DNA of 34,253 nt from assembly GCA_028820405.1 (NCBI GenBank), contig JAPPJI010000017.1:1-34253 (forward strand), read 5' to 3'. The translations under genes were made by a program, and so were the position numbers. The notes beneath the pieces are model-generated. The model worked only from the letters and a program-made list of their open reading frames with translations. It ran no database searches and was not told the DNA's origin. Shown here in pieces: positions 123 through 30,248 of this stretch (position 1 is its first letter; each line of letters starts with the position of its first letter). Origin of the DNA: Candidatus Kaiserbacteria bacterium (GTDB taxonomy: Bacteria > Patescibacteriota > Minisyncoccia > Phycocordibacterales > JABAAK01).

Positions 123-128
123 TACAAT
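123..128 (+). promoter_or_regulatory. -10 element of the ABC-F gene
   Basis: TACAAT preceded by TG-A (an extended -10), ending 7 nt before the ATG at 136. The same box and geometry recur in front of uppP. It decides the start at 136 over the upstream ATG at 127, which would overlap the box. No -35 is seen at 17 bp. Confidence 0.6.
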
Positions 129-135
129 GAAAACC

Positions 136-1710
136 ATGCTGCTGTCCGCAAACGCAATTGAGAAACAGTATGGATCTCATACGGTATTTGAATCTCTCTC
201 ATTCACCATTGATGAGGGGCATAAAATAGCGTTGGTGGGGAAGAATGGGGCAGGAAAGAGCACTCTCATGCGGATCCTCGCCGGCAGTGAGGACCCGGAC
301 AGCGGATCGGTCACTCTGACAAAAGGCAGGGTTTGTGCTTTTGCACCGCAGGAGTTGGTCGCTGACGAAGGGCGGACAGGAATCTCGTATCTCAACGACC
401 TCGGGCTCAAGGAGCACCAGTTTATTCCAATTCTTGACGGGCTCGGTATGTCACAGGCAGTGGTTGAACAGCCGATTGATTCTCTCAGCGGCGGACAGCG
501 ATCAAAAATCCTCCTCGCAACCTTCTTGCTGCAACCGGCTGACATTCTTCTGATGGATGAGCCCACTAACAATCTGGACATTCCTTCACTCGTATGGCTT
601 GAGACATTTCTTGCCGCATCGAAAAAAGCTATGGTAATTATCTCGCACGACCTGACATTTCTCAACAACGTGGCAAACCGCGTTTTTGAATTGAAGGACG
701 GTACCCTTACCTCCGAGCGGGGGACGTACGGCGACTATCTGGAACGGAAGAAGAAGGAGCATGATCGGCAGATGCGTCAGTACCGAGAATATCAGGAGCA
801 GCTGCAGAAACTGAGAAAGGATCGGGATGATTTAAAACAAAAAGGAGAACGGATCGATGCGGTACAAACGACAGACAAGGACAAGTTCGCGTCCGGTGTG
901 AATCGGGATCGTGCCTCAAAGGGACAGCAGCGGGTCCGGTCGCTGGATCGGAACATACGGAAACTGGAGACCGTTGAAAAGCCATATGAAGAGGATGAGT
1001 TTGCCCTGCACATCTCGACCGGTCATGTCGAAGGAGCGGTTGAAGTGACGGTTGATGACGTTGTTGCCGGATACCCTGACGGACTCTCGGTCGGACCGCT
1101 GTCGTTGACCCTGAAACAGGGTGAACGGCTCTGCTTTATGGGAGAAAACGGTTCCGGGAAGAGTACGGTACTCAAGACCATCATCGGGGCATTGCCTCCT
1201 TTGCAAGGCAGTGTGACAAAGACAGATGCGGTGCAAATCGGCGACTTCATGCAGCACCATGAGCGTGCCGACCGAAGCAAAGATGTCCTGTCGTTTTTTA
1301 TACAAGAGACGCGTAGTGACCGGGAGCGGGCGATGCATGCTTTGAAAAAGGTCGGATTCTCTGACCAGACAATCGTGCAGACAATCGACGGCATATCACC
1401 CGGTATGCGGGCCCGTCTCCTCTTTGCGGTGTTTGTCGCAACCGGTGTCACGATGCTGGTGCTTGACGAGCCGACTAACCACCTTGACACTGAGGCGGTC
1501 TTCGCACTGAAAGACATGCTCAAAGACTATCAGGGGATCGTCCTCCTCGTTTCACACAATCGTTGGTTCCTGGAGAACGTTGCCATCAACCAGTACTTTC
1601 ATATCGGTGACGGTACGGTTGATCGTATTAAAGATTTTGAACAGTATCTCCGGCAGGCGGGTGATCGGGCAAAGGGTATGACGGCCCGGCTCAAAAGAAT
1701 GATACAATAG
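136..1710 (+). CDS. ABC-F family ATPase (ribosome-associated, EttA/Uup-like)
   Basis: Soluble tandem ABC ATPase without membrane segments, 524 aa from this start. Domain 1 has Walker A GKNGAGKST, signature LSGGQRSK and Walker B ILLMDEPTNNLD. Domain 2 has Walker A GENGSGKST, a degenerate signature around ISPGMRAR and Walker B LVLDEPTNHLD. Between them lies a long charged, helical linker rich in Lys, Arg and Gln (about residues 215-290), the place of the ABC-F P-site tRNA interaction motif. Members of the family act on the ribosome E site in translation factor or antibiotic-protection roles; which applies here cannot be told from sequence. The start is chosen by the -10 box at 123-128, giving MLLSANAIEK, a normal family N-terminus. 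Alternatives are ATG 127, with AGGAGAGG 11 nt upstream, and TTG 70. The next gene, uppP, starts 4 bp downstream from its own promoter inside this gene's last codons. Confidence 0.9.
   Translation: MLLSANAIEKQYGSHTVFESLSFTIDEGHKIALVGKNGAGKSTLMRILAGSEDPDSGSVTLTKGRVCAFAPQELVADEGRTGISYLNDLGLKEHQFIPILDGLGMSQAVVEQPIDSLSGGQRSKILLATFLLQPADILLMDEPTNNLDIPSLVWLETFLAASKKAMVIISHDLTFLNNVANRVFELKDGTLTSERGTYGDYLERKKKEHDRQMRQYREYQEQLQKLRKDRDDLKQKGERIDAVQTTDKDKFASGVNRDRASKGQQRVRSLDRNIRKLETVEKPYEEDEFALHISTGHVEGAVEVTVDDVVAGYPDGLSVGPLSLTLKQGERLCFMGENGSGKSTVLKTIIGALPPLQGSVTKTDAVQIGDFMQHHERADRSKDVLSFFIQETRSDRERAMHALKKVGFSDQTIVQTIDGISPGMRARLLFAVFVATGVTMLVLDEPTNHLDTEAVFALKDMLKDYQGIVLLVSHNRWFLENVAINQYFHIGDGTVDRIKDFEQYLRQAGDRAKGMTARLKRMIQ
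1703..1708 (+). promoter_or_regulatory. -10 element of uppP inside the 3' end of the ABC-F gene
   Basis: TACAAT preceded by TG-A, ending 6 nt before the GTG start at 1715. It lies in the last codons of the upstream gene, so uppP can be transcribed independently, probably as a leaderless mRNA. Confidence 0.6.
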
Positions 1711-1714
1711 GGAG

Positions 1715-2509
1715 GTGGACACTGCGTATCTCGTTGCACTGGCTTTTTTGCAGGGAGTAACAGAGTTTTTGCCGATATCATCGTCAGCTCATCTTGTTCT
1801 TGCCAATGCACTGGCACCGCAGAGCGGTAACCCCGCCTCTGTTATCGTTGCACTGCACGGAGCGACTCTCCTTGCCCTGCTGGTGTATTTTTTTGATGAT
1901 ATTCGAAGACTGCTGCACGGTGCACTGAGCGGACAGTCCGGTGACCGAACCTATGTCGTCGCTCTCGGCATCGCAACGCTGCCAATGATCGTTGCGGGTG
2001 CTTTTTTGTATGAAATGTTTATTCAGAGCAATGATCCGACAATGGTTGCCGCGGTGCTTATTGTTTCCGGTCTCTCTCTCTTTGTCGCTGATCGGTATGC
2101 ACAGAGCACTCAACGGCGGACAACGCCGCTCCCGATGCGGGGGCTTGTTATCGGTCTCATGCAGCTGCTCGCCGTTATTCCCGGTGTCTCTCGGTCAGGC
2201 ATCACCATGACCGCCGGTCGCCTGGTCGGCTTCTCACGAAACGAGGCGGTTCGGTTTTCCTTTCTGCTCGGCATACCGGTCATTTTCGGAGCACAGGTGT
2301 GGTCTGTTGTCACCATTCTTCGCGGCAGTGCTGCCGTCCTTCCGGTGTCACCGCTCGCCCTCATTGGTGCGTCTGCGATAACGTTCTTTCTCGCACTGGG
2401 TGTTGTGCGGCTCCTGCTGCAGGTAATTGAGCGGATCGGGTTTGCACCGTTTTGTGTGTACCAGATTGTTCTCGGAACCCTCGTTCTCGTTACCGCTATC
2501 GCTCAATAA
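1715..2509 (+). CDS. uppP: Undecaprenyl-diphosphatase (BacA/UppP)
   Basis: Integral membrane phosphatase that dephosphorylates undecaprenyl diphosphate to recycle the lipid carrier of peptidoglycan synthesis. At 264 aa it has the normal family length. The two family signatures are visible: GVTEFLPISSSAHL near residues 14-27 and GVSRSGITMTAGRLVGFSR near 156-174, which carry the conserved Glu, Ser and Arg of the active site. Multiple hydrophobic helices span the remainder. The start is GTG, 6 nt after an extended -10 TGATACAAT. A GGAGG lies directly against the GTG, too close to serve as a normal ribosome binding site. The 3' end overlaps a minus-strand small ORF by 14 bp. With rodA at 28.4 kb it indicates a peptidoglycan wall. 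Confidence 0.95.
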   Translation: MDTAYLVALAFLQGVTEFLPISSSAHLVLANALAPQSGNPASVIVALHGATLLALLVYFFDDIRRLLHGALSGQSGDRTYVVALGIATLPMIVAGAFLYEMFIQSNDPTMVAAVLIVSGLSLFVADRYAQSTQRRTTPLPMRGLVIGLMQLLAVIPGVSRSGITMTAGRLVGFSRNEAVRFSFLLGIPVIFGAQVWSVVTILRGSAAVLPVSPLALIGASAITFFLALGVVRLLLQVIERIGFAPFCVYQIVLGTLVLVTAIAQ

Positions 2510-2621
2510 GTTTTGCCTCAAAGTCCGGTTTTTCCTGCGGGTTGTCCGTGAGGTCGGGGACGACGAGTGAATAGATGAAGGCGGCGATCAGAACGTAGAG
2601 GGCAAGGTACGCAATTCTCAT
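2496..2621 (-). CDS. 41-aa single-pass membrane peptide, unknown function
   Basis: Too short for the ORF track. It reads from ATG at 2621 down to TAG at 2496-2498 and gives MRIAYLALYVLIAAFIYSLV followed by an acidic, charged tail ending KLIER. This is one hydrophobic helix of about 20 residues with a cytosolic or extracellular tail of about 20. A TATACT box on the minus strand (2635 to 2630) ends 8 nt before the ATG, matching the leaderless geometry seen across the window. It is convergent with uppP (14 bp overlap) and divergent from tRNA-Thr. It is not recognised as a known family. A real gene is favoured by the promoter, the hydrophobic/charged layout and the fact that it fills the otherwise empty 140-bp gap. 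No homology could be tested. Confidence 0.6.
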   Translation of the reverse strand: MRIAYLALYVLIAAFIYSLVVPDLTDNPQEKPDFEAKLIER

Positions 2622-2629
2622 GAGTTTGC

Positions 2630-2637
2630 AGTATACT
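2630..2637. promoter_or_regulatory. Palindromic -10 (AGTATACT) shared by tRNA-Thr and the 41-aa peptide
   Basis: AGTATACT is its own reverse complement, so it offers TATACT on both strands. On the plus strand TATACT ends 12 nt before the tRNA-Thr 5' end. On the minus strand it ends 8 nt before the ATG of the 41-aa peptide. Confidence 0.6.
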
Positions 2638-2649
2638 ATGCAACAATAC

Positions 2650-2722
2650 GCCACCTTAGCTCAGTCGGTAGAGCACTCCCATGGTAAGGGAGAGGTCGTC
2701 GGTTCAAATCCGACAGGTGGCT
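2650..2722 (+). tRNA. tRNA-Thr (anticodon GGT)
   Basis: Complete cloverleaf of 73 nt. The acceptor stem is GCCACCT/AGGTGGC, the D stem GCTC/GAGC, the anticodon stem CTCCC/GGGAG with loop ATGGTAA (anticodon GGT, reading ACC/ACU), and the T stem GTCGG/CCGAC with loop TTCAAAT. The discriminator is T. The 3' end continues as CCT, so CCA is not fully encoded and must be completed by the CCA-adding enzyme. The start codon of the next gene follows only 9 nt after the discriminator. Confidence 0.95.
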
Positions 2723-2731
2723 CCTGATGAT

Positions 2732-4213
2732 ATGCCCATCTTTACGAAAACTGACTTCATCCATTTTCTCCGATGCAGTCATTCTTTGTGGCTTGAGAAA
2801 CACAAGCCTGACGTGTTTCCGAGAAAAGAGTTCAGCGATTTTCTCAAGAAAATTGCACGGGAAGGATATGAGGTAGAGGCATATGCCCAGCAGCTGTTTC
2901 CCGGCGGTGTCTCATTGCCGTCCAACACGAGCGGTGTTGCGAAAACAAAAGAAGCGGTTGTATCCGGTGCATCTGTGCTGTTCCAGGCTGCGGTGCAAAC
3001 AGAGGACAATCTCTTCGCCCGAACTGATGTTCTGGAGAGGGACGGTGACGGGTGGACACTCTATGAGGTGAAATCATCAACGTCGGTGAAGCGGGACCGG
3101 CAGCACAACCACATCCTCGACGCCTGTTTTCAGAAAGTTGTTTTTGAGCGGTCGGGATACCGTATTGATCGGGTATGCATTATTCATGTGAACGGCTCAT
3201 ACAGACGTGACGAAGTGATTGTTCCGCACGATCTCCTCACCATCACCGATGTGACGGAGGAGGTTCGGGAAAAGGAGGGTGAGGTGGTTCTCAGTATCAG
3301 AGCCGCTCAGGCGGTACTTGAATCTGAGTCAATAAACGAGTCTGTGTGTCCGTGTTTCCGAAAGACGAAGGCTAATCACTGCGATGCGTTCGCATACTTT
3401 AACGGCGAATATTCCGCAGGGTCGGTATGGGAGCTGACGAGAATCAGTGAGAAGAAACTCAACCTCCTCCTTGATCAAAGCGTTATTGCCATAAAAGACG
3501 TTCCTGTTGATACTGATCTCAACGACCGGCAGATGCGTCAGGTTCGTGCCGCGGTTGAAGGACGCCCCGTTATCAATCGGGGGGCGGTGCGGAAGCTGCT
3601 CGACACATACACGTTCCCGCTCCTGTTTTTTGACTACGAAACGGCAATGCATGCGGTACCGAGAATCATCGGTATGCGACCGTGGCAGCAGATACCGTTT
3701 CAGTTCTCACTGCACATCCTTCATGAGGACGGCAGATTGCAGCACAAGGAGTACCTCGGAGACACGCTCAATGCCTCACGTGACGTTATCGTCGCACTGT
3801 GTGAAGCGATGCCGGAGGAAGGATCGATTGTCTCCTGGCACGCCAGCTTTGAAAAACAGCGGAACAAGGAGATGGCGGAGACGTATCCGGCGTATGCAAA
3901 TGCTCTCCTCGGCATGAATGATCGTATGGTTGACCTGGAGGATGTTTTTAAGGAGGCGTATACTGACACGGCGTTTCTCGGGTCAACGTCAATAAAAAAA
4001 GTGCTGCCGGTGCTCTGTCCGGATCTCTCGTACCGGGACCTTTCGGTACAGGACGGAACCCAGGCAATGGAGCAGTGGCTTGCACTGGTGGAAGGGGGCG
4101 TGCCGGAGGCGGATCGGCAGCGTGTTCGTGAAGATCTGCTTGCGTACTGCAAGCTTGATACCTATGCAATGGTGCAGCTGTATACCAAACTTGCCCGCTG
4201 TGCGGCGGGATAG
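2732..4213 (+). CDS. DUF2779-type nuclease: PD-(D/E)XK/Cas4-like plus DEDD exonuclease-like domains
   Basis: 493 aa from ATG 2732; the ORF-track start lies inside the tRNA and is discarded. The N-terminal half resembles Cas4/RecB-type nucleases: a Cys in FLRCSHSLWL (C15), an acidic residue at RTDVL (about 99), YEVKSST (about 111-117, the E-x-K of a PD-(D/E)XK site), and a later Cys cluster CPCF...HC (about 206, 208, 217). This is the spacing expected for a 4Fe-4S cluster made from one N-terminal and three C-terminal cysteines. The C-terminal half has LLFFDYET (about 298-304), SWHASFEKQRN and a late YCKLDTYAMVQLY, consistent with the DUF2779 domain and a DEDDy-like RNase H fold. It probably acts on DNA or RNA ends, but its role is unknown. 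It is transcribed just after tRNA-Thr with no separate promoter visible. Confidence 0.8.
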   Translation: MPIFTKTDFIHFLRCSHSLWLEKHKPDVFPRKEFSDFLKKIAREGYEVEAYAQQLFPGGVSLPSNTSGVAKTKEAVVSGASVLFQAAVQTEDNLFARTDVLERDGDGWTLYEVKSSTSVKRDRQHNHILDACFQKVVFERSGYRIDRVCIIHVNGSYRRDEVIVPHDLLTITDVTEEVREKEGEVVLSIRAAQAVLESESINESVCPCFRKTKANHCDAFAYFNGEYSAGSVWELTRISEKKLNLLLDQSVIAIKDVPVDTDLNDRQMRQVRAAVEGRPVINRGAVRKLLDTYTFPLLFFDYETAMHAVPRIIGMRPWQQIPFQFSLHILHEDGRLQHKEYLGDTLNASRDVIVALCEAMPEEGSIVSWHASFEKQRNKEMAETYPAYANALLGMNDRMVDLEDVFKEAYTDTAFLGSTSIKKVLPVLCPDLSYRDLSVQDGTQAMEQWLALVEGGVPEADRQRVREDLLAYCKLDTYAMVQLYTKLARCAAG

Positions 4214-4220
4214 CATGCGG

Positions 4221-4226
4221 TATCAT
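4221..4226 (+). promoter_or_regulatory. -10 element of the pilin-like gene
   Basis: CGG-TATCAT ending 8 nt before ATG 4235, between the two genes. It fits the window-wide leaderless pattern. Confidence 0.55.
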
Positions 4227-4234
4227 GTGAATGT

Positions 4235-4858
4235 ATGGTGCTTTTACGGTCTTCGCGAAAGGGATTTACGCTCATTGAGGTGCTGGTTGCAATTGCGGTG
4301 ATAACGACAATATCATTCGCACCGTTTGCCATCATCGCCCAGCGTCTCATTGACAATTCACTCGCAGAGGATCGGGTGCGGGCACATCTCATGGCACAGG
4401 AAGTTATTGAATTTGTTCACTTTGCACGAGATCAATCAATCATCGACGCTGATGAAAAGAACTGGTTTGCCAATCTGCGAAACACTAATGCGAGTGAGAA
4501 TATCTACGCACCGTGTGTTGTTTCTGCCGAAGATTTCATAAAAGGGTCGGTGTCAACATACTGCTCCGTGCAGTGCAGGAGTACCGGTGTGGCGTCGGAC
4601 TGTACCGGGAGCAACGGTTTTGTCTCGGGTATCAACAGCAGTGCCGGGACACAGGGCAATGCAGCAACGACCTGTGACGGCGGTTCGGTCAAAGCCGACG
4701 GTGCTTTTACCGTAACGCTCAACATTGTTATTCCGGAAGCAGATGCCGATGTGCAGTATGCACTGATTGACTCCTGCGTTTCTTGGCAGGGGGCTGATGA
4801 CGTGGTCCGGAGCATTACATCACGGGAGACGATGTTTGAGTGGGTGTTAAAGACGTAG
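4235..4858 (+). CDS. Type IV pilin-like (prepilin-type N-terminal cleavage/methylation) protein
   Basis: 207 aa with a class III signal: a short basic leader MVLLRSSRKG, then the FTLIEVLVAIAVI core in which prepilin peptidase cuts after Gly and the following Phe is methylated. The hydrophobic N-terminal helix continues to about residue 35. The remaining globular domain contains several Cys (APCV, TYCSVQC, ASDCTG, TTCDG, DSCVSW), suggesting disulfides outside the cell. It is probably a minor pilin or pseudopilin (PilV/GspI-like) of a type IV pilus or competence system. The start is fixed by the TATCAT box. The next gene, another pilin-like protein, begins 1 nt after its stop, so the pair probably form one operon. 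No assembly ATPase or peptidase lies in the window. Confidence 0.85.
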   Translation: MVLLRSSRKGFTLIEVLVAIAVITTISFAPFAIIAQRLIDNSLAEDRVRAHLMAQEVIEFVHFARDQSIIDADEKNWFANLRNTNASENIYAPCVVSAEDFIKGSVSTYCSVQCRSTGVASDCTGSNGFVSGINSSAGTQGNAATTCDGGSVKADGAFTVTLNIVIPEADADVQYALIDSCVSWQGADDVVRSITSRETMFEWVLKT

Positions 4859-4859
4859 T

Positions 4860-7449
<2,590 letters not shown>

Positions 7450-7480
7450 CAGTGTTCTTGCGAAGCGGTATGCAGCAGGG

Positions 7481-7486: not shown

Positions 7487-7495
7487 GTGGTTGAT

Positions 7496-9165: not shown

Positions 9166-9188
9166 CGTATGGTGAGGAATGCTTTGGG

Positions 9189-9194
9189 TATACT
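9189..9194 (+). promoter_or_regulatory. -10 element of the 402-aa membrane protein gene
   Basis: GGG-TATACT ending 9 nt before ATG 9204. Confidence 0.6.
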
Positions 9195-10751: not shown

Positions 10752-10757
10752 TATACT
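10752..10757 (+). promoter_or_regulatory. fic -10 element embedded in the fourth CGGGTAT heptamer
   Basis: TATACT ending 11 nt before ATG 10769. Its first three bases are the end of the last CGGGTAT heptamer (10748-10754), so anything binding the heptamer would cover the promoter. No -35 is visible. Confidence 0.65.
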
Positions 10758-15451: not shown

Positions 15452-15457
15452 TATACC
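15452..15457 (+). promoter_or_regulatory. -10 element of the AAG-type glycosylase gene
   Basis: TGG-TATACC ending 6 nt before ATG 15464. The sixth base is C rather than T. Confidence 0.5.
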
Positions 15458-15463: not shown

Positions 15464-16039
15464 ATGAAGAGAGACCGGCTCCCGCCTTCATTTTTTACGC
15501 AACAGACGACACTGCAGCTTGCGGAGAGCCTCATCGGGTGTATTTTGGTGCATGAAACGGCGTCCGGAGTTGTTACCGGTCGTATTGTTGAGACCGAAGC
15601 GTATACCGAGTCGGATGCGGCATCGCACAGTGTTCACGGAAAAGTGACTGACAAGAATGCATCTATGTTTCTCCCTGCGGGGCACCTCTATACATACCAG
15701 ATCTACGGACACGTCTGCTGTAATATTGTTGCGGAGCGTGAAGGGAAGGGGTGTGCAGTGCTGCTTCGGGCAGCGGTGCCGATGAACGGCATCCCTCTCA
15801 TGCTGCAGCGTCGGGGCATCGAACCTCTTTCCGACGGTCCGGGAAAACTGTGTCAGGCATTTGGCATTACGCAGGATCACAACGGTTTAGACCTCACCAA
15901 TGCACATGCACCTCTCTTTGTCGCACCGAAGGAGGTGGCGTGTAAGGTTGTGCGGACACCGCGTATCGGTATCAGCCGTGCGACAGAGAAGATGTGGCGT
16001 TTTGTTGCCGGTGATGCCGGTGGTATACTGACACCATGA
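15464..16039 (+). CDS. 3-methyladenine DNA glycosylase, AAG/MPG family
   Basis: 191 aa. It removes alkylated and deaminated purines in base excision repair. The family signature is complete: RIVETEAY (catalytic Glu45 of EAY), ASHSVHGKVTDKNASMF, PAGHLYTYQIYG, AVLLRAAVP, GPGKLCQAFGI and TPRIGIS. The ORF-track start at 15260 runs through the divergent region and is not used; the -10 at 15452 fixes ATG 15464. The last codons contain the promoter and the ATG of the next small ORF (ATGA overlap). UvrB and LigA elsewhere in the window are also repair proteins. Confidence 0.93.
   Translation: MKRDRLPPSFFTQQTTLQLAESLIGCILVHETASGVVTGRIVETEAYTESDAASHSVHGKVTDKNASMFLPAGHLYTYQIYGHVCCNIVAEREGKGCAVLLRAAVPMNGIPLMLQRRGIEPLSDGPGKLCQAFGITQDHNGLDLTNAHAPLFVAPKEVACKVVRTPRIGISRATEKMWRFVAGDAGGILTP
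16024..16029 (+). promoter_or_regulatory. Extended -10 in the 3' end of the glycosylase gene
   Basis: TGG-TATACT ending 6 nt before ATG 16036. It is one of the strongest boxes in the window, in front of a 62-aa ORF rather than directly before tyrS. Confidence 0.65.
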
Positions 16040-16224
16040 ATGCTTTCCAGAGCGGGTCACGGGTCCTTTTGTACTATCGTTTTGCATATGTCTTTTTTCG
16101 TTTTGTCGGTCGCGGAGAGCGTCGTGCGACCTCAGAGGCCCGACAATTTGCACTGCGTAAGCTGCATCACATGATTGACGGCAGCGTTCAAATTTCAGCA
16201 AAGCGTATTTATGGTGACTCGTGA
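16036..16224 (+). CDS. 62-aa basic small protein, unknown
   Basis: ATG overlaps the glycosylase stop (ATGA) and lies 6 nt after a strong TGGTATACT box. The stop overlaps the start of tyrS by 14 bp. The product has an aromatic/hydrophobic part (VLLYYRFAYVFFRFVGRG) and a basic helical part (ERRATSEARQFALRKLHHMI). No family is recognised. Codon use looks like that of its neighbours. It could be a real small protein or a leader ORF coupling to tyrS; the promoter placement argues that ribosomes start here. Confidence 0.55.
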   Translation: MNAFQSGSRVLLYYRFAYVFFRFVGRGERRATSEARQFALRKLHHMIDGSVQISAKRIYGDS

Positions 16225-17408: not shown

Positions 17409-17414
17409 TACCAT
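17409..17414 (+). promoter_or_regulatory. Extended -10 of proS
   Basis: TGG-TACCAT ending 7 nt before ATG 17422. It decides this start over ATG 17398, which overlaps the tyrS stop. Confidence 0.55.
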
Positions 17415-17421: not shown

Positions 17422-18681
17422 ATGAAGCAGTCATTTTTAGTGACAAAGACCCGGAAAGAAGGGCTTGGTGAGGATACTGCAATTAATGCTGAATTGCTGG
17501 TTCGTGCCGGGTACGTACACAAGACCATGGCTGGTGTCTATACGTTTTTGCCGCTCGGTTTGCGGATGCTGAACAATATTGTCGGTATCATTCGGGAAGA
17601 GATGGATGCGATTGGTGGTCAGGAGATGCACCTGAGCGCACTGCAGAATCCGTCCGTGTGGCAGGAGTCCGGTCGCTGGGGCGGTGATGCGGAATCGGTT
17701 TGGTTTCGGTCATCACTGCAATCCGGCGGCGATGTCGGACTTGCCTGGACACATGAGGAGCCGGTTACCGAGATGCTTCGTCACCACGTCTCCTCATATC
17801 GTGACTTGCCCTGTTCCGTCTATCAGTTTCAAACAAAATTTCGGAACGAGGAACGTGCAAAAAGCGGTCTGCTCCGTACGCGGGAATTTCTTATGAAAGA
17901 CCTCTACTCACTTTCCCGGAACGAGGAAGAGCACAAGGCATTTTATGAAAGGTGTGCCGGTGCGTACCTTCGTATTTTTGACCGTATCGGTCTTGGCGAC
18001 AGCACCTACCGGACGTTTGCAAGCGGCGGTGCATTTTCTCAATTTAGCGATGAATTTCAAACCGTGCTTGCGTCCGGTGAGGATACCATTTACCTGCATC
18101 GGGAAAAACGTATTGCGGTGAATGAAGAGGTGTATACCGATGAGGTGCTCGAGAAGGTTGGTCTTGACCGCAGCGATCTGGAGCAGGTTCAGTCGTGTGA
18201 AGTCGGTAATATCTTTACGCTCGGTACACGATTTTCCGAGGCACTTAACCTTCTCTACACCGACGAATCCGGTGACACCTCTCCGGTATTCATGGGATCA
18301 TACGGTATCGGCCCATCCCGGCTTATGGGTGTCATTGCTGAACAGTACAGTGACGGTGAGCAGAGTATGGTGCTCCCTGATGCTGTTGCGCCGTTTCGTC
18401 TCCACCTCATTGCTCTCGGTGCATCAAGTCAGGTACAAGAAGCTGCATCAACACTGTATGACCGGCTGCAGGATCGTGAGGTGAGTGTGCTCTTTGATGA
18501 TCGGGACCTGTCGGCCGGTGAGAAGTTTGCTGACAGTGACCTTGTCGGCATTCCGCATCGCATCGTTATCTCTGACCGAACACAGGAGTCCGGTCAGGTT
18601 GAGTACCTTGATCGAAAAACAGGGAAGACATCAATGCACAAAACCGATCCGGATGGTATGGTGAAATTGTTGTATGCATAA
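17422..18681 (+). CDS. proS: Prolyl-tRNA synthetase lacking the INS editing domain
   Basis: 419 aa. It charges tRNA-Pro. Class II motifs: motif 1 around NIVGIIREEMDAIGGQE, motif 2 FRNEERAKSGLLRTREFLMKD, motif 3 YGIGPSRLMGV. The anticodon-binding domain follows (FRLHLIALG ... VSVLFDDRDLSAGEKFADSDLVGIPHRIVI). Standard bacterial ProRS of about 570 aa carry an INS editing domain of about 180 aa between motifs 2 and 3; here the sequence runs directly from SGEDTIYLH to VQSCEVGNIFTLG. The length matches the INS-less type known from alphaproteobacteria and mitochondria. Mischarged Ala-tRNA(Pro) would need a trans-editing factor, none of which is seen here. The gene overlaps the next one by 8 bp. Confidence 0.95.
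   Translation: MKQSFLVTKTRKEGLGEDTAINAELLVRAGYVHKTMAGVYTFLPLGLRMLNNIVGIIREEMDAIGGQEMHLSALQNPSVWQESGRWGGDAESVWFRSSLQSGGDVGLAWTHEEPVTEMLRHHVSSYRDLPCSVYQFQTKFRNEERAKSGLLRTREFLMKDLYSLSRNEEEHKAFYERCAGAYLRIFDRIGLGDSTYRTFASGGAFSQFSDEFQTVLASGEDTIYLHREKRIAVNEEVYTDEVLEKVGLDRSDLEQVQSCEVGNIFTLGTRFSEALNLLYTDESGDTSPVFMGSYGIGPSRLMGVIAEQYSDGEQSMVLPDAVAPFRLHLIALGASSQVQEAASTLYDRLQDREVSVLFDDRDLSAGEKFADSDLVGIPHRIVISDRTQESGQVEYLDRKTGKTSMHKTDPDGMVKLLYA
18657..18662 (+). promoter_or_regulatory. Possible -10 of the exonuclease gene inside proS
   Basis: TGG-TATGGT ending 11 nt before ATG 18674. Placement is at the long end of the range; translational coupling from proS is an alternative. Confidence 0.35.
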
Positions 18682-19263: not shown

Positions 19264-19269
19264 TATACT
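19264..19269 (+). promoter_or_regulatory. Extended -10 of the peroxiredoxin gene
   Basis: TGG-TATACT ending 7 nt before ATG 19277, starting 8 bp after the exonuclease stop. Confidence 0.7.
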
Positions 19270-19879: not shown

Positions 19880-19881
19880 GT

Positions 19882-20502
19882 ATGGGATGGAATGTTATCC
19901 TTCTTTCGAGTGGCTTTAGTAATCCGGCCATTCTTGCAATGGTTGAGGATGCGGTCCGTGACCGATCGTATCAGACGGGCTGTGTGATTACGACAGCACA
20001 CCCAAAAAAGCAGGCATCACCGTGGGCAAAGGCAACGAAAAAGCAGCTCGAGAAAGCGGGTCTGTCGGTCTCCTTCGTCGATTTCGACGCGGGCGATAAG
20101 ATTCCTGACAAAGCCGACGTTCTGTACATCTGTGGCGGTAACACCTACCACCTCCTCTCCAGCATCAACACGGCACCGTTTGATGTTCGGGAACGAGTTC
20201 GTGACGTTCTTGATCACGGCGGTCTCTATATCGGTTCAAGTGCCGGTGCTGTCGTGGCATCGTCGAATATTGCAACAGCCGGTGAGGTCGGTGGTGACAA
20301 AAATGACGATAAGATAGATGATTTGACCGGTCTGTCGCTCACACCGCTCTATGTTGTTCCGCACGATACGCCGGAACAGGATCATGCTATTGAGCAGTTC
20401 TGCTCAGCACACAGCCTTGATGATGGCGACGTGTTAAGGATTTCGGACGATGAAGGAGTATTTATTGACTCATTGCAGGGAGTAGTTGATGTGGTATCAT
20501 AG
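19882..20502 (+). CDS. Peptidase S51 family (peptidase E-like)
   Basis: 206 aa, cytoplasmic. The N-terminus ILLSSGF, the CGGNTYHLL loop and the nucleophile motif YIGSSAGAVV (Ser120 of the SAG turn) match dipeptidase E-type serine peptidases of the class I glutaminase fold. Peptidase E cuts Asp-Xaa dipeptides. It lies 2 nt after the peroxiredoxin stop without a -10 of its own, so it is in the same mRNA. The last codons carry the promoter of the FKBP gene. Confidence 0.85.
   Translation: MGWNVILLSSGFSNPAILAMVEDAVRDRSYQTGCVITTAHPKKQASPWAKATKKQLEKAGLSVSFVDFDAGDKIPDKADVLYICGGNTYHLLSSINTAPFDVRERVRDVLDHGGLYIGSSAGAVVASSNIATAGEVGGDKNDDKIDDLTGLSLTPLYVVPHDTPEQDHAIEQFCSAHSLDDGDVLRISDDEGVFIDSLQGVVDVVS
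20495..20500 (+). promoter_or_regulatory. Extended -10 of the FKBP gene
   Basis: TGG-TATCAT ending 8 nt before ATG 20509; the box overlaps the stop region of the S51 peptidase. A TTGCAG lies 16 bp upstream. Confidence 0.6.
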
Positions 20503-23200: not shown

Positions 23201-23207
23201 TGTCTTT

Positions 23208-23462
23208 TTATTTTCCGCGAAGGTGGTTGATGGCGAGGAAAACAATGGTCCACCACACGCTTTGCAGTGCTGCAACGAGAAAAATACCGTATGGTACATT
23301 GCCAAAACCGTCGAATAGATAGCTAATAAGGATGCCTCCCGGGAAGATGAGAATGGTGCCGATTGTTGATGAAACCTGCAGACCAATGAACATTCCCGCA
23401 AACGTGGCAAAAATTCCAATGCAAACTCCAAAGATGATAGCGTTTGTGATGTGATTACTCAT
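23208..23462 (-). CDS. 84-aa membrane protein with two to three TM segments
   Basis: Start ATG at 23462. Mostly hydrophobic: NAIIFGVCIGIFATFAGMFIGL, STIGTILIFPGGILISYLF and NVPYGIFLVAALQSVWWTIVFLAI, ending NHLRGK inside. No known family is recognised. A TACATT box on the minus strand (23474 to 23469) ends 6 nt before the ATG, the same leaderless geometry as on the plus strand. It is convergent with uvrB (7 bp between stops) and divergent from the aminopeptidase gene. The overlapping minus ORF at 23015-23431 in another frame is a shadow. Confidence 0.7.
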   Translation of the reverse strand: MSNHITNAIIFGVCIGIFATFAGMFIGLQVSSTIGTILIFPGGILISYLFDGFGNVPYGIFLVAALQSVWWTIVFLAINHLRGK

Positions 23463-23468
23463 ACTGTG

Positions 23469-23474
23469 AATGTA
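23469..23474 (-). promoter_or_regulatory. -10 element of the 84-aa membrane protein gene
   Basis: TACATT on the minus strand, 6 nt before ATG 23462. Confidence 0.45.
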
Positions 23475-23535
23475 TTGTATGTGTATTGATAATTCGTATG
23501 CTCACCCTTACATCGTAACATGATTGTCTGCCTGT

Positions 23536-23564
23536 TTGATAACGGGTGTGTGGTTGTATATACT
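23536..23564 (+). promoter_or_regulatory. Aminopeptidase promoter (TTGATA, 17 bp, TATACT)
   Basis: A full sigma-70-like promoter with -35 23536-23541 and -10 23559-23564. It lies 25 nt before the start, so this mRNA has a leader of about 19 nt carrying AAGGA 7-8 nt from the ATG. Confidence 0.75.
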
Positions 23565-23589
23565 GTCTCTGTTTACCAAGGAATCTACC

Positions 23590-25035: not shown

Positions 25036-25074
25036 CTGTTGTGTATAACGGTGGGGCAGGAAAGGGGATGGTGC

Positions 25075-25080
25075 GATACT
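25075..25080 (+). promoter_or_regulatory. Extended -10 of the FG-GAP protein gene
   Basis: TGC-GATACT ending 10 nt before ATG 25091. Confidence 0.5.
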
Positions 25081-25090
25081 GTAGGGGAGT

Positions 25091-27556
25091 ATGAAGGTTG
25101 ACGAACACCCGTATAAGAAGCATGCTATTCGCTTTTTTCTCTTCTTTTCTCTTTGTCTGTTTGTGGTCGGCGCGGCAAAGGGGTTTGCTCAGGATGCAGA
25201 TTTTTTTGTCAGCCGGCTCTTGCAAAATGAGACGGATGAAAGCATTTTGGCCGTTGAAGTGCAGGGTGACTTTATTCACAACGATGTTCTCAACGTCTAT
25301 ACCAACGGTCAGTTTATTAAATCTAAGGTAATTGAGGGTTCCGATATCGGGGACGGTAAAACGGTTGTTGTGAAAAATATTTCTGTCGACGTGCTGCGTG
25401 GCGGTGTGAACGATATCACTGTGGCAATTGAGCGGCAGGGGGTTGAAGAGCGGCAAACCGAACCGTTTCGTATCACGATTCAAACGGTTCCCGACCGACC
25501 GATTCTTGCGGTCACAAAAGTGGAGGAGGACGGCGGCTATGCGGCAGAGGTTACCACACCATTTCTCGTTGACGACGTCGTTGCGGTATTTCTCAACGGA
25601 GAAGAGGTGGTGACGGTACCGGTGACCGATTCGCTTGTTGAAAAAGGTATGGTTTCGGTCCTGCTGCAGGAGGCGTTATTTATTGAAGGTGACAATCGGA
25701 TCGAGGCACTGATTCGGCGTGGTGATCTTGAGGGCGGACTAAGCAGCCGAGAAACCGTTACTATCGCCTCTGAAGAAGAGGGGGTGGCGGTGCAGAGCAC
25801 CATACCGTCCTGTTTTGCATATACCGAGCAGCAGTATATTCAGCCGGAGTACCGCGGAAAGGGAGATGAGTTCGGCACGTCGGTAGCCTTGTTCGGCAGC
25901 ACGGTTGCAATCGGTAACAAAGAAGGGGAGGTTGAAGTTTTTGCAAAGAGCATGCAGGGAGAAGAAGAGGTGTGGAAGCATGTTACTGATTTTGAAGGCG
26001 GTCGATACACATTTCGGCATGACAATCCGAAGAGCATACTGCTTGACGGCTCTGAACGGCTTCTCGTCGGCACGAATACCGCTGACTATCAGGGAGGTCA
26101 ATCCGGTATCGTTGAGGTGTTCGCCCGATCTGACGACAAGTGGTCCGGAACCGGCATCATTGCACCGAAGTCTCTCGGTGCTCGTGAACTGTTTGGCACG
26201 CACATTGCGGTGAATGACACAATGATGGTCGTAAGTGCACTGCGTCCTGACGTCGGCGGCGGTATTTATGTCTATGAGCGGGATAGCCGTGATTCGTCAT
26301 GGGGCCCGCCGACTATTATCACCCCTCGTTCCGTAACAGATGCGATGCGATTTGGTGAACAGGTTGCGGTAGGTGAGGGTACCATTGCAGTCTCATCCCC
26401 GGGCAGTTTTGCGATATACCTTTATTCAAAGGACGGAGGTCGTTGGGTAGAAGAGCGGGTGACGGCACGGCATGGTAGTACTGACAATTTGTTCGGAAGC
26501 CGATTGCTGCTAGTAAACGGTATGCTCATCGTGGGTGCTCCGGGTGAAGGAGAGCAGGGCATGGTGTACATCTATGAACGTGACAGACGGGATGCGTGGA
26601 ATTTGACACAGATGCTGCCGGCACCAAAGGGTGCACGGGATTTCGGTGCTGAGATGGCATACGTTGATGGTGCGCTTGCAGTTGGTGCTCCGAGAACCAA
26701 TCGAACGGGTGCAGTCTTTGTCTTCACACACCGCGGCGGTGTGTGGCGGTTGCAGGACACGGTAATGCCGGACATGCTGAGTTTGGGTGACCGGTTTGGA
26801 TCAAGTATCGGCATGTACGGAACAACGCTTGTCGTCGGCGCACCCGGAGACGATGCGACAGATTCGTCAAATGTCGGTACCGCATACCTCTTCACAGCGA
26901 GTGAATCAGTCTGCTCTGCTGCTGTTGTCGGAGGCGTTGTGCCTGAGCAGGAAACAGTCTCCCCGGAGGAGAACGTGCAGAACCTCCTGGAAAGGCAGGA
27001 AGAATTAGAGGTTCTCAATGAAGATGTGCAGGCACTCATCGGTGCTATTTCACAAAATATTGTCGCTGCCATGCAGGAGGTGGTTCGGCATGAGGATCGT
27101 ATCATTATTTTCGACGAAGCGTTGGTGAGCGGTTCGGCACAGCGGCGTGCCGCAACGGTCCGTGGTATTACCGCCCCGTGGATTCCTCCCGAGGTGACCG
27201 CTGAACAGTATAAGGCGAAGGAGGCAAGTATTCCCACTGAGCCGGAGGTACGGAGCCGTGTTGAGGTGGTAAATGAAGTAGTAGATGATGCAGGTATTGT
27301 TGTTCCCGTTACCAGTGTCGGTCTTAGCCTCGGTGACCGTCATGAAGATGTGTATCGGCTGCAGATTTTTTTGAATCAGAATGGATATCGGATTGCGGCA
27401 GACGGTCCGGGCAGTCCGGGAGAGGAGACAAACGAATTTACTGAATCGGTTGAGCGGGCACTCAAGCTCTTTCAATTTATCAACGGTCTTGATCAGACCG
27501 GCGTGTTAGACGGAAAAACACGGGACCTCGTGTTCACGTATGTTGACGGCGTCTAG
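25091..27556 (+). CDS. Secreted FG-GAP beta-propeller protein with C-terminal peptidoglycan-binding domain
   Basis: 821 aa. Signal peptide (IRFFLFFSLCLFVVGAAKGFAQD, cut near 33). Two beta-sandwich-like domains (about 40-135 and 140-235) follow. Next are six to seven FG-GAP-type blades (about 258-600), each with a pattern such as GDEFGTSVALFGSTVAIG, RFGEQVAVGEGTIAV, DNLFGSRLLLVNGMLIVGAPG, DFGAEMAYVDGALAVGAP and DRFGSSIGMYGTTLVVGAPGDD, a fold resembling integrin-like propellers. A predicted coiled coil (about 630-665) leads to a PGB_1-like domain at the end (LGDRHEDVYRLQIFLNQNGY ... LKLFQFINGLDQTGVLDGKTRD, about 745-815). The protein is therefore likely attached to the cell wall with the propeller displayed outward, possibly for adhesion to a host cell. 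The target is unknown. Confidence 0.85.
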   Translation: MKVDEHPYKKHAIRFFLFFSLCLFVVGAAKGFAQDADFFVSRLLQNETDESILAVEVQGDFIHNDVLNVYTNGQFIKSKVIEGSDIGDGKTVVVKNISVDVLRGGVNDITVAIERQGVEERQTEPFRITIQTVPDRPILAVTKVEEDGGYAAEVTTPFLVDDVVAVFLNGEEVVTVPVTDSLVEKGMVSVLLQEALFIEGDNRIEALIRRGDLEGGLSSRETVTIASEEEGVAVQSTIPSCFAYTEQQYIQPEYRGKGDEFGTSVALFGSTVAIGNKEGEVEVFAKSMQGEEEVWKHVTDFEGGRYTFRHDNPKSILLDGSERLLVGTNTADYQGGQSGIVEVFARSDDKWSGTGIIAPKSLGARELFGTHIAVNDTMMVVSALRPDVGGGIYVYERDSRDSSWGPPTIITPRSVTDAMRFGEQVAVGEGTIAVSSPGSFAIYLYSKDGGRWVEERVTARHGSTDNLFGSRLLLVNGMLIVGAPGEGEQGMVYIYERDRRDAWNLTQMLPAPKGARDFGAEMAYVDGALAVGAPRTNRTGAVFVFTHRGGVWRLQDTVMPDMLSLGDRFGSSIGMYGTTLVVGAPGDDATDSSNVGTAYLFTASESVCSAAVVGGVVPEQETVSPEENVQNLLERQEELEVLNEDVQALIGAISQNIVAAMQEVVRHEDRIIIFDEALVSGSAQRRAATVRGITAPWIPPEVTAEQYKAKEASIPTEPEVRSRVEVVNEVVDDAGIVVPVTSVGLSLGDRHEDVYRLQIFLNQNGYRIAADGPGSPGEETNEFTESVERALKLFQFINGLDQTGVLDGKTRDLVFTYVDGV

Positions 27557-27570
27557 CAGTCCGGTGCATG

Positions 27571-27576
27571 TATACT
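27571..27576 (+). promoter_or_regulatory. -10 element of the 262-aa conserved protein gene
   Basis: ATG-TATACT ending 8 nt before ATG 27585. Confidence 0.6.
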
Positions 27577-27584
27577 GACAGTGT

Positions 27585-28373
27585 ATGTCAGTGTGGGCAG
27601 CAAGACGACGGATTTATATCATAACGACAGCAACTATTCTTGCGGTATTTTCCGCAGTATTTGCAATCATACTTCTCTCATACCAGCCCGCATCGTGCGA
27701 AGACGGCAAACAAAACGGGTCTGAATTCGGTATTGATTGCGGAGGTATCTGTCCGAACGAATGTCCTGTTCCGCCGAAGCGACCGCTTGATTTGTGGACA
27801 CGGGCATTTCCGCTTGCAGACGGTGTCTATGCTGCCGTCGCATACGTTGAAAATCAGAACAGCGATCTGTATGTTCCTGAGGTGCAGTTTGAGATTGAGG
27901 TGTATGACAGGAACAATGATTCCATTACCCGGGCATCAAGGAGGACACCGATTATGCCGGGCGGTGTGACACCGGTTTTTGTGCCGCACATTATCACAAA
28001 AGAGCGGTCAGTGTCACACGCAACATTTCGATTTGTCTCTAATCCGAAGTTTGCAGTGCACCAGAATCCGTACGATATTATTTTTTCAAACATAGATCTT
28101 GATGCGAACGAACCGTCGGTGAGTGCTGTCGCGACAAATCGGGGGTCTCAGTCGCTTCGTGAGGTTGAATTTGTCGTTATTCTCTATGACGCTGATAACG
28201 TTGCAGTGGCGGCGTCAACAACGGTGCACTCGCACATTAGGCCGGGGGAGTCAAGAAACCTTGCATACACCTGGGTGCATCCTATCTCACTGCGACAGGG
28301 TCCCTGTCCGGGCGGAACGTGCTATCGGCCGATTGAGCGGGTGGAAATCATCCCGATCGTCTATGATGAGTAG
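27585..28373 (+). CDS. Membrane-anchored conserved protein with SCxDGxxN/DCGGxCxxxC motif
   Basis: 262 aa. The N-terminus is basic, then comes a single TM (IITTATILAVFSAVFAIILLSY, about 11-33). Directly after it lies a Cys-rich motif, PASCEDGKQNGSEFGIDCGGICPNECP, of a kind I associate with Parcubacteria and other microbes' surface proteins; the Cys residues probably form disulfides. The remaining part is two beta-sandwich-like modules (AAVAYVENQNSDLYVPEVQFEIEVYD and SAVATNRGSQSLREVEFVVILYD) resembling FxLYD-type repeats. Function unknown. Directly upstream of rodA with a 3-nt gap, it may share expression with cell-shape genes, though rodA has its own possible -10. Confidence 0.75.
   Translation: MSVWAARRRIYIITTATILAVFSAVFAIILLSYQPASCEDGKQNGSEFGIDCGGICPNECPVPPKRPLDLWTRAFPLADGVYAAVAYVENQNSDLYVPEVQFEIEVYDRNNDSITRASRRTPIMPGGVTPVFVPHIITKERSVSHATFRFVSNPKFAVHQNPYDIIFSNIDLDANEPSVSAVATNRGSQSLREVEFVVILYDADNVAVAASTTVHSHIRPGESRNLAYTWVHPISLRQGPCPGGTCYRPIERVEIIPIVYDE
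28362..28367 (+). promoter_or_regulatory. Possible -10 of rodA
   Basis: TATGAT ending 9 nt before ATG 28377, inside the last codons of the upstream gene. Confidence 0.4.
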
Positions 28374-28376
28374 CAT

Positions 28377-29495
28377 ATGGAGGATGTGTTGAGCAGTGTG
28401 CGACGTGCGGATTGGCTTCTTATCGCACCGGTATTTCTCATCATGGTTGTCGGTCTCATTACGAACATCCCGGTTGATGCCGTTGCAGTTAACTCACTTA
28501 TCGTTAAGCAGACTGTTTTTGTCCTCATTGCAATGGCAATCATTCTTGCCGGTACGGCGGTTGACTACGCCATTCTCCGTGGTCCGCTTGTGCCACTCCT
28601 GCTCTACAGTGCTTCAGCGGCAGTTCTCGTTTCTCTTCTCCTTTTTGCACCTGAAATCAATGGGGCGAAAAGCTGGTTTCCCATCGGGCCGATTGCGGTG
28701 CAGCCGGTTGATTTTGCAAAATTGGTTCTCATACTCACACTTGCCCGATTCTTCGTGATTCGTCACACACACTTGCGTCACGTGATCATCTCACTCATTC
28801 TCACCGGCACCCTTTTTCTCCTTGTCTTTGCACAGCCGGATCTCGGGTCGTCAGTTATCCTCATTGCGATCTGGATCGGTATCATTTTTGTCTCCGGTGT
28901 CTCACGTCGGCATATTATGTGGCTTGCAGTGGCGGCAACGTTTGTTGCCCTTGTCGGCTGGCAATTTATTCCTGAATACCAGAAAGATCGGGTACTCGCC
29001 TTTATCGAACCGTTGGAAAACCTTGAGTCAGCGGGATATACCACCAACCAGGCAAAGATTGCTATCGGGTCCGGCATGCTCTTTGGCAAAGGTATTGGAG
29101 AGGGGACACAGGCGAACATGGGGTTCTTGCCGCTCTATGAGTCGGATTTTGTGTTTGCGGCATTTGCAGAGGAGTGGGGGTTCTTCGGTGTCATGCTCCT
29201 CCTCCTGAGTTACGGTATTATCGGTTGGCGGCTTCTTGTGCATGCCCGGCAGGGACGGACAAGTTTTGAGGCACTGACGATTGTCGGCATCTTTGCCCTC
29301 ATATTTTCACACATGGCCGTTCATGTCGGAGTGAATACGGGAACCCTTCCGGTAACAGGGATTACACTCCCGTTTATGAGTTACGGAGGGTCACACCTCA
29401 TTGCCGAAGCCATCGCCATCGCACTCGTGCTCAGCATGGCCCGTCGACAGCTTCCCGGAACATCTGCTGAACTCTCTCGTCGCCGTATTGCTTAG
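28377..29495 (+). CDS. rodA: RodA/FtsW-type peptidoglycan glycosyltransferase (SEDS)
   Basis: 372 aa with about ten TM helices. SEDS proteins polymerise lipid II into glycan strands with a partner class B PBP. Conserved SEDS features are visible: INGAKSWFPIGPIAVQPVDFAKL, the catalytic-Asp region AQPDLGSS, the extracellular-loop GKGIGEGTQANMGFLP, the EESDFVFAAFAEEWGF-like block and GITLPFMSYGGSHL. It resembles RodA (elongation) more than FtsW by the short length and lack of an N-terminal extension. No mreB or PBP2 gene is in the window. The next gene region is noncoding. Confidence 0.92.
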   Translation: MEDVLSSVRRADWLLIAPVFLIMVVGLITNIPVDAVAVNSLIVKQTVFVLIAMAIILAGTAVDYAILRGPLVPLLLYSASAAVLVSLLLFAPEINGAKSWFPIGPIAVQPVDFAKLVLILTLARFFVIRHTHLRHVIISLILTGTLFLLVFAQPDLGSSVILIAIWIGIIFVSGVSRRHIMWLAVAATFVALVGWQFIPEYQKDRVLAFIEPLENLESAGYTTNQAKIAIGSGMLFGKGIGEGTQANMGFLPLYESDFVFAAFAEEWGFFGVMLLLLSYGIIGWRLLVHARQGRTSFEALTIVGIFALIFSHMAVHVGVNTGTLPVTGITLPFMSYGGSHLIAEAIAIALVLSMARRQLPGTSAELSRRRIA

Positions 29496-29527
29496 CAGTT
29501 GGGGTATCGGTTGAAATATTTTTTGTG

Positions 29528-29533
29528 TATACT
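29528..29533 (+). promoter_or_regulatory. -10 element of ncRNA candidate 1
   Basis: TGTG-TATACT with an upstream AT-rich tract. The predicted start is near 29540. Confidence 0.55.
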
Positions 29534-29539
29534 AAGCAT

Positions 29540-29640
29540 GCCTCAGGGTATCTCATTGGACCGCTTCTTGAGGTGAGTTAGAGGAGAGGTGGGAAGCCGG
29601 TAGAGATTGGATCGTCCAGTCCTACCGGCTATTTTTTTTG
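29540..29640 (+). ncRNA. ncRNA candidate 1 (about 100 nt, own promoter and terminator)
   Basis: Starts 6-7 nt after a TATACT box and ends in a very strong rho-independent terminator. No convincing ORF lies inside. The 5' part folds as CCTCAGG/CTTGAGG (7 bp with one G-T) around a 20-nt loop. The middle is purine-rich (GTTAGAGGAGAGGTGGG, Shine-Dalgarno-like). The terminator stem is AGCCGGTAG, A bulge, GATTGGA / TCCAGTC, CTACCGGCT. It does not match SRP RNA, tmRNA, 6S or RNase P by motif. A leaderless 12-codon ORF from the ATG at 29538 is possible but too close to the box. Confidence 0.6.
29595..29639 (+). terminator. Rho-independent terminator of ncRNA candidate 1
   Basis: A 9-bp AGCCGGTAG/CTACCGGCT stem extended by 7 more pairs after a one-base bulge, with a 3-nt loop and eight T directly after. 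It may also terminate rodA read-through. Confidence 0.92.
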
Positions 29641-29656
29641 CAAATGCGGCGTGTGA

Positions 29657-29662
29657 TATACT
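29657..29662 (+). promoter_or_regulatory. -10 element of ncRNA candidate 2
   Basis: TGTGA-TATACT just 17 nt after the T-tract of the first unit. The predicted start is near 29669. Confidence 0.55.
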
Positions 29663-29668
29663 AATAGT

Positions 29669-29766
29669 AGTATCAGGAGATCTCTGATCAATTAACTGTT
29701 TCCAAGGGGAGGGGAATGGTAGGAGGTGCGTGTAAACAGCGGCTTGTGCACGCACCTCTTTTATTT
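29669..29766 (+). ncRNA. ncRNA candidate 2 (about 100 nt, own promoter and terminator)
   Basis: Tandem to candidate 1 and with the same build: a 5' hairpin (ATCAG/CTGAT around a 7-nt loop, 29672-29688), a purine-rich GGA-repeated single-stranded part (CCAAGGGGAGGGGAATGGTAGGAGG) and a GC-rich terminator. The primary sequences of the two units are not similar beyond this layout. No convincing ORF; ATG 29717 after AAGGGGAGGGG would read through the terminator for 20 codons only. Confidence 0.55.
29723..29766 (+). terminator. Rho-independent terminator of ncRNA candidate 2
   Basis: A 10-bp stem GAGGTGCGTG/CACGCACCTC with a 16-nt loop (inner ACA/TGT pairs possible), then TTTTATTT. Confidence 0.85.
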
Positions 29767-29774
29767 CTCACTGT

Positions 29775-29803
29775 TTGAAAAATATTCTGCACTGATATAC
29801 CTT
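29775..29803 (+). promoter_or_regulatory. Possible promoter of the 108-aa unknown gene
   Basis: TTGAAA 29775-29780, 17 bp, TACCTT 29798-29803. TATACC (29796) and TATACA (29805) overlap it, so the exact -10 is uncertain. It leaves a leader of about 40 nt with a strong Shine-Dalgarno. Confidence 0.45.
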
Positions 29804-29836
29804 ATATACAGACAGGGACACTTACCACACCGTGAG

Positions 29837-29844
29837 AAGGAGGG
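29837..29844 (+). promoter_or_regulatory. Shine-Dalgarno AAGGAGGG deciding a TTG start
   Basis: Near-perfect anti-16S complement 4 nt before TTG 29849. It is the best ribosome binding site in the window. Confidence 0.75.
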
Positions 29845-29848
29845 TACC

Positions 29849-30175
29849 TTGAAACATGATATTTTCTTTGCATATGCTTTCGAACGTGCTCTTGAGAGTG
29901 TGTTAGAGAAATCTCCCATTGATTCTCGTTCTCACACGCTCACCAAGGAAGCATTCGAACTATTTTTATTAGAAGCGGGCGGAACCGCCTCATTCGAACG
30001 GTTTGCTCCGTCCGTGAGGTCTTTCGGCAACGGTCGTTTCGAAGTCAGGATTGATGTAACTGTCTACAAAAAACGGTATTGGCGAGTGAGAGGTGCCGCT
30101 CAGTCGATGCAGAAGCTCCTTGCAAGACACAACGTCAAGGCTACTGTTCGAGTGAGGCAGTCTCAAAATCTTTGA
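29849..30175 (+). CDS. 108-aa protein of unknown function (TTG start)
   Basis: The ORF track extends it to 29726, but that crosses the terminator of ncRNA candidate 2. The start is TTG 29849 behind AAGGAGGG. The product (about MKHDIFFAYAFERALESVLEK ...) is a soluble, mixed alpha/beta protein with a helical first half (ALESVLEK, EAFELFLLEAGG) and a basic second half (GNGRFEVRIDVTVYKKRYWRVRGAAQSMQKLLARHNVKATVRVRQ). No family is recognised. The basic C-terminus could bind nucleic acid. It has a leader, its own promoter and terminator, so it is a single-gene unit. Confidence 0.75.
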   Translation: MKHDIFFAYAFERALESVLEKSPIDSRSHTLTKEAFELFLLEAGGTASFERFAPSVRSFGNGRFEVRIDVTVYKKRYWRVRGAAQSMQKLLARHNVKATVRVRQSQNL

Positions 30176-30202
30176 TACTGTTGTCTCGGAGACGGTAAAG
30201 GA

Positions 30203-30231
30203 CCCCCGTATGTCAGGTACGGGGGACTTTT
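30203..30231 (+). terminator. Rho-independent terminator after the 108-aa gene
   Basis: CCCCCGTA/TACGGGGG (8 bp) with a 7-nt loop, then ACTTTT. The secD -10 begins 5 bp later, so the terminator and the next promoter are fused. Confidence 0.85.
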
Positions 30232-30235
30232 GTGG

Positions 30236-30241
30236 TATGGT
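30236..30241 (+). promoter_or_regulatory. Extended -10 of secD
   Basis: TGTGG-TATGGT ending 7 nt before ATG 30249, immediately after the terminator T-tract. Confidence 0.55.
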
Positions 30242-30248
30242 AGAAGGT

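Follow-up and report, generated by a model that had tools for sequence, protein, structure and literature searches.

The window, a contig of 34,253 nucleotides (nt) from a Candidatus Kaiserbacteria genome, places -10-type promoter hexamers a few nucleotides upstream of many of its start codons, and the same arrangement recurs throughout the source genome. In what is very probably the best explanation, these boxes are extended -10 promoters giving leaderless or near-leaderless messenger RNAs (mRNAs) in a lineage of uncultured, ultra-small bacteria whose 16S ribosomal RNA has a decayed anti-Shine-Dalgarno (anti-SD) sequence. The leaderless or near-leaderless architecture is predicted with confidence, and the combination of close promoters with a lost anti-SD suggests that translation initiation is mainly leaderless.

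Promoter boxes at start codons

The window corresponds to contig C7 in a 27-contig genome of 636,599 nt (91.7% complete), in which every contig was covered by a dicodon gene caller that is blind to upstream signals, yielding 525 genes; motif statistics are based on 515 coding-only starts. The best matches of its UvrB are a Parcubacteria group metagenome-assembled genome (MAG; 64%) and a Campbellbacteria MAG (63%), and the lineage, judged from sequence, is a member of the Patescibacteria of the Paceibacteria/Parcubacteria kind, with a class name that we infer. The pattern TANNNT, whose background is about 1% per position, lies at a gap of 6–11 nt (counted between hexamer and start codon) before 37.5% of the starts, compared with 4.8% of in-frame internal ATGs and 5.7% of out-of-frame ATGs, and the stricter TATA[AC]T at the same gaps precedes 11.3% of starts versus 0.0–0.1% of internal ATGs. 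De novo discovery with a zero-or-one-occurrence-per-sequence (ZOOPS) model and no preset pattern recovered tGgTATAcTg upstream of about half of the genes, with a gap mode of 6–8 and a log-likelihood at width 8 of 409, against 24–27 for shuffled rows. An earlier sequence-only reading of the window had made its leaderless proposal depend on a genome-wide positional enrichment, and a sharp peak is indeed present at 6–10 nt.

The lower edge of this peak is hard: sites of at least 8 bits number 0 at gap 5, 22 at gap 6 and 23 at gap 8, and the posterior gap distribution rises from 0.3% at 5 nt to 18.8% at 6 nt. Such an edge would arise if RNA polymerase starts about 6–8 nt past the -10 element and the AUG must lie in the transcript. 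In a joint model of start and motif, in which a gene is classed as boxed at a posterior >0.5, the fitted pi is 0.59, compared with 0.01–0.06 in five of six permuted-column decoys, and 50% of genes combine such a posterior with a gap of 6–12; as predicted here, about 50–59% of all genes would qualify as leaderless or near-leaderless. A G stands at -2 to the hexamer in 68%, which is a feature of extended -10 promoters, and in the -35 region of the source genome nothing rises above noise (information content at most 0.09 bit). Boxed genes start with ATG (196) or GTG (9) and never with TTG (0), and 47 of the 52 gap-6 genes have T or C at -1, a pyrimidine that fits the A as transcription start at a normal initiation site. 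Shine-Dalgarno (SD) signals are missing before the same start codons, with SD4 at about 0–1% per position at gaps 4–11 and virtually none at gaps 5–9 in boxed genes, versus up to 11% in box-less ones. Both features of the TA-led class of leaderless genes, a positionally enriched -10-type TANNNT near the start and a missing SD, are found together in this genome.

Transfer RNA (tRNA) genes share the box, which stands at a gap of 7–12 before 24 of 40 of them versus 1.2 expected; this use, together with the upstream TG or G and the weak or missing -35, is as found for extended -10 promoters. Because no ribosome acts at these genes, the box is marked as a promoter and not a ribosome-binding site, and the tRNA gap mode of 10 fits a 2–4 nt pre-tRNA leader, compared with the coding-gene gap of 6–8.

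Box possession follows the space available upstream. With any gap allowed, the box is found in 72% of divergent genes and, among co-directional genes, in 65% at a spacer of 11–20 nt, 88% at 21–30 nt and 80% at 31–60 nt; with gaps of 6–12 only, the last two values are 85% and 70%. From these sequences, most genes with room therefore appear to be served by a promoter of their own, alongside short coupled operons. Two divergent pairs (C22:8498-8517 and C2:28553-28574) are only 19 and 21 nt apart, and both promoters would have to fit inside.

According to the proposed mechanism, the housekeeping RNA polymerase would recognize the extended -10 promoter (tGgTATAcT, no clear -35) and would begin transcription at the start-codon A for gaps of 6–8 or 1–5 nt upstream of it for gaps of 9–12, so that the mRNA would be leaderless or nearly so. 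The 5'-terminal AUG would then be read by initiator tRNA on the ribosome in place of SD pairing; we infer both the exact transcription start and initiation on such AUGs. Box-less genes would chiefly occupy the second place in short operons, their start codon touching or overlapping the stop of the gene before, and a few may have a longer leader.

Loss of the anti-Shine-Dalgarno sequence

The sole 16S gene of the source genome, in which no second copy was found, ends after helix 45 with GGAATAATTCAAGTGAAATCACC..., where GGATCACCTCC would stand. At this position CCTCC is missing from every genome of the order whose tail is readable, 28 of 28 (the source genome and 27 further), and at gene level the loss of CCUCC across the order is predicted with confidence. 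Within the class sample, the canonical tail was matched in 39 of 190 genomes and many other members form a graded tail series, for example GGATCATCTCC, GGAACATCTCC, GGAACATTTCCT and GGAACATTTCAA; outside the class, among the matches listed, 117 of 120 readable-tail genomes keep CCTCC. Conservation past helix 45 is limited to the first ~12 nt, which is the usual tail length, and the change is thus read as decay in place. It is plausible that the dominance of leaderless mRNAs caused this loss, in that it would have relaxed selection on the anti-SD.

Where found, a leader-trailer stem of 15–33 base pairs closes typically 117–162 nt after helix 45, and in the source genome at 117 nt. The corresponding stretch of 117–162 nt (C21:66761-66911 and relatives) is poorly conserved, and its long closing stem contains GUUCCGUUC/GAACGGAAC in many genomes. 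In one further genome of the order an extra 16S end of Escherichia coli type with canonical CCTCC lies near a contig edge (G147:C6:263-321); it looks foreign and is probably contamination.

Other accounts of the tail were considered and set aside. An intron or insertion hiding the anti-SD in the source genome was rejected, as no ACCTCC occurs in 1,300 nt from the 16S 3' region onward and the closing stem follows so soon. A replacement anti-SD in the tail would be CACCUUC, which would pair with GAAGGUG, yet the enriched motif is AGGAGG. Loss of Era as a partner of anti-SD loss was likewise rejected, since Era exceeds its cut-off in 1 of 190 class genomes, whatever the tail state; the scattered occurrence of bS21 is uninformative for tail state.

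Conservation among relatives

Protein homology was used to locate the orthologous starts in four genomes of the order, at identities of 27–76% among the rows listed. When the gene of the source genome is boxed, 55% of 56 orthologs carry a box at gap 6–10, versus 2% at gaps 15–19 or 25–29, and when it is box-less, 15% of 33 orthologs do so. The box and SD comparison across genomes covered 26–111 genes per genome; at gaps of 6–10 the extended -10 is enriched 10.9-fold in the source genome, 8.1-fold in four other genomes of the order and 2.6- to 4.8-fold in other groups, which may score too low, as the matrix was trained on the source genome. As a prediction, the leaderless proposal of the sequence-only reading gains support from this conservation at orthologous starts, in addition to the tRNA boxes, the extended -10 G and the 6-nt edge.

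Weighing the alternatives

The motif may be argued to be an AT-rich, non-SD ribosome-binding signal, as discussed for Bacteroidota, on mRNAs with ordinary leaders, given that a 16S without anti-SD needs some non-SD signal; this is highly improbable, because GgTATACT also precedes tRNA genes, the motif equals the extended -10 consensus with its G at -2, and the box is depleted at operon-internal starts, which need ribosomes too. Real promoters combined with mis-called starts, the true starts lying further downstream behind normal leaders, are a concern with a home-made caller, in whose output the joint start and -10 model marks the starts at 2786, 11958 and 23590 as doubtful. The peak is already present in coding-only calls, the homology-placed starts in relatives agree, and the hard edge coincides with the minimum distance from -10 to +1, all of which makes such a general misplacement very hard to credit. 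Chance or base composition, invoked because TANNNT is a loose pattern that could abound in AT-rich gene ends and has a background of about 1% per position, is refuted by the internal-ATG, shuffled and permuted-column controls and by a GC content of 0.49–0.53 in the source DNA, and its probability is practically nil.

Several observations weigh against leaderless promoters as a complete account. Among genes that overlap or lie at most 10 nt from an upstream gene, the box is found in 29–30%, and operon-internal genes are common; the earlier view that single-gene units prevail over operons thus stands for most genes with room and fails for a sizeable box-less minority, which mostly overlaps or closely follows the previous gene. 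The boxes of co-directional leaderless genes overlap the upstream open reading frame (ORF) in only 18 of 125 cases and mostly lie just past the upstream stop, so that the placement of boxes inside upstream genes, correct for 16024 and 20495 in the window, does not extend to the genome. One of the six permuted-column decoys reached a pi of 0.36. In the class, G142 has an intact CCUCC and leaderless boxes (12 vs 0.8), G056 and G124 have lost CCUCC and show little of the source-genome motif, and the state of the tail and the strength of the box do not correspond strictly. SD-like motifs in the source genome number 86 versus 36.5 expected (2.4-fold), mainly at box-less genes, where AGGAGG occurs 11 times versus 0.5 expected; a strict SD precedes 21 genes, several of them with a -10 box 20–60 nt upstream, and these include many hypothetical, secreted-looking proteins and one EF-Ts (by eye). 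In the same-genus G002, AGGAGG occurs 6 times versus 0.5, with 60% of the stretch masked. Moreover, S1 domains are present, and IF3 (L031:6344-7075) is a misfit as well, with an N-terminal domain of 92.9 bits and a C-terminal domain of 21.4 against a Pfam cut-off of 34.8; this weak C-terminal domain is restricted to the window's family among the genomes searched.

These strict-SD genes and the AGGAGG excess in both genomes favor an explanation in which leaderless mRNAs are real and SD pairing is kept elsewhere, through a second 16S that escaped assembly, a tail altered by processing or editing, or a pyrimidine-rich stretch at another place, the loss being only apparent in the genus. It is unlikely, considering the single 16S and the early stem closure in the source genome, the same-order genomes that also have no CCUCC (with one 16S match each in the single-contig G002 and G009) and the missing SD enrichment in G009 and G083 of the same order. 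Under extended -10 leaderless promoters with a decayed anti-SD, the stronger proposal that the whole order initiates chiefly leaderless, that the anti-SD was therefore lost in place via sister-order intermediates, and that the perfect-SD genes use a non-standard pairing site or none is evenly balanced between being right and wrong.

Boxes within the window

With a gap of 6–12 and a posterior >0.5, 18 of the 29 called genes in the window carry a box, in addition to a 41-amino-acid (aa) and a 62-aa ORF (Table 1). All nine examples named in the sequence-only reading were recovered, with the coordinates it quoted denoting the hexamer and not the start codon. The 62-aa ORF, which was not in the gene list, has its own leaderless box and lies over the tyrS start, which explains why tyrS is without one. 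In G147, of the same order, GTATACT precedes the proS ortholog at gap 7. At 2630-2637 the palindromic AGTATACT provides overlapping -10 boxes in both directions, toward tRNA-Thr on the plus strand and the 41-aa ORF on the minus strand.

Table 1. Predicted -10 boxes in the window, with the start each would serve (PWM, position weight matrix).
Position	Strand	Hexamer	Gap (nt)	Start	Support
123..128	+	TACAAT	7	ATG 136 (ABC-F type ATPase)	posterior 1.00
1703..1708	+	TACAAT	6	GTG 1715 (UppP-like)	posterior 1.00
2630..2635	-	TATACT	8	ATG 2621 (41-aa ORF)	sequence; ORF by eye
2632..2637	+	TATACT	12	tRNA-Thr (2650-2724)	tRNA call; PWM 8.1 bits
4221..4226	+	TATCAT	8	ATG 4235	posterior 0.99
5438..5443	+	TGGTATACT (hexamer TATACT)	8	ATG 5452 (ligA)	posterior 1.00
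9189..9194	+	TATACT	9	ATG 9204	posterior 1.00
10752..10757	+	TATACT	11	ATG 10769 (Fic-like protein)	posterior 1.00
15452..15457	+	TATACC	6	ATG 15464 (DNA glycosylase-like)	posterior 0.99
16024..16029	+	TATACT	6	ATG 16036 (62-aa ORF, 16036-16224, overlapping tyrS start 16211)	sequence, translation
17409..17414	+	TACCAT	7	ATG 17422 (proS)	posterior 0.98
18657..18662	+	TATGGT	11	ATG 18674	posterior 0.97
19264..19269	+	TGGTATACT (hexamer TATACT)	7	ATG 19277 (peroxiredoxin, Prx)	posterior 1.00
20495..20500	+	TATCAT	8	ATG 20509 (FKBP)	posterior 0.99
23474..23479	-	TACAAT	11	ATG 23462	posterior 0.78; sequence
25077..25082	+	TACTGT (weak)	8	ATG 25091	posterior 0.93
27571..27576	+	TATACT	8	ATG 27585	posterior 0.99
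28362..28367	+	TATGAT (weak)	9	ATG 28377 (RodA/FtsW-like)	posterior 0.72
30236..30241	+	TATGGT	7	ATG 30249 (secD)	posterior 0.99

Relation to known systems and significance

In bacteria, leaderless initiation is known as a minority mode or as a companion of SD initiation. The TA-led genes described by Zheng et al. 2011 (PMC3160421) share a TANNNT -10 box about 10–12 bp upstream of the start and are read as leaderless, with a maximum of 46.1% in D. radiodurans; the case presented here differs in concerning another phylum, the uncultured Patescibacteria, in a 16S without CCUCC and in a share of about 50–59%, which was obtained by a different method and is not directly comparable. Similarly, for many mRNAs of Mycobacterium tuberculosis the start codon is the predicted 5' end (PMC3898074); there they were mapped by RNA-seq and operate alongside an SD system, whereas here they are predicted only and the anti-SD is decayed. 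Mammalian mitochondrial mRNAs are mostly leaderless too (PMC9881170) in an independent lineage, whereas the genome described here is bacterial and has >500 called genes. A paper that does not mention promoters lists two genomes, one of Campbellbacteria and one of Wolfebacteria, that lack CCUCC and are scarce in SD (PMC10783764); those are isolated genomes, whereas here the loss extends over the order, is graded within the class and is linked to a leaderless -10 arrangement. Isolated CCUCC loss is thus already published, and the literature searched contained no account connecting it with leaderless promoters; no report of leaderless genes in Patescibacteria or the Candidate Phyla Radiation (CPR) was found in a search mostly outside subscription journals and preprints.

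A lineage with predicted leaderless dominance and a decayed anti-SD would offer a natural series of graded states in which to study how SD pairing is lost from a ribosome. At the same time, gene finders tuned to SD will misplace starts in such genomes, in which the box would be a strong predictor of starts. The reach of these consequences may be wide, as the Paceibacteria make up a large part of the Patescibacteria.

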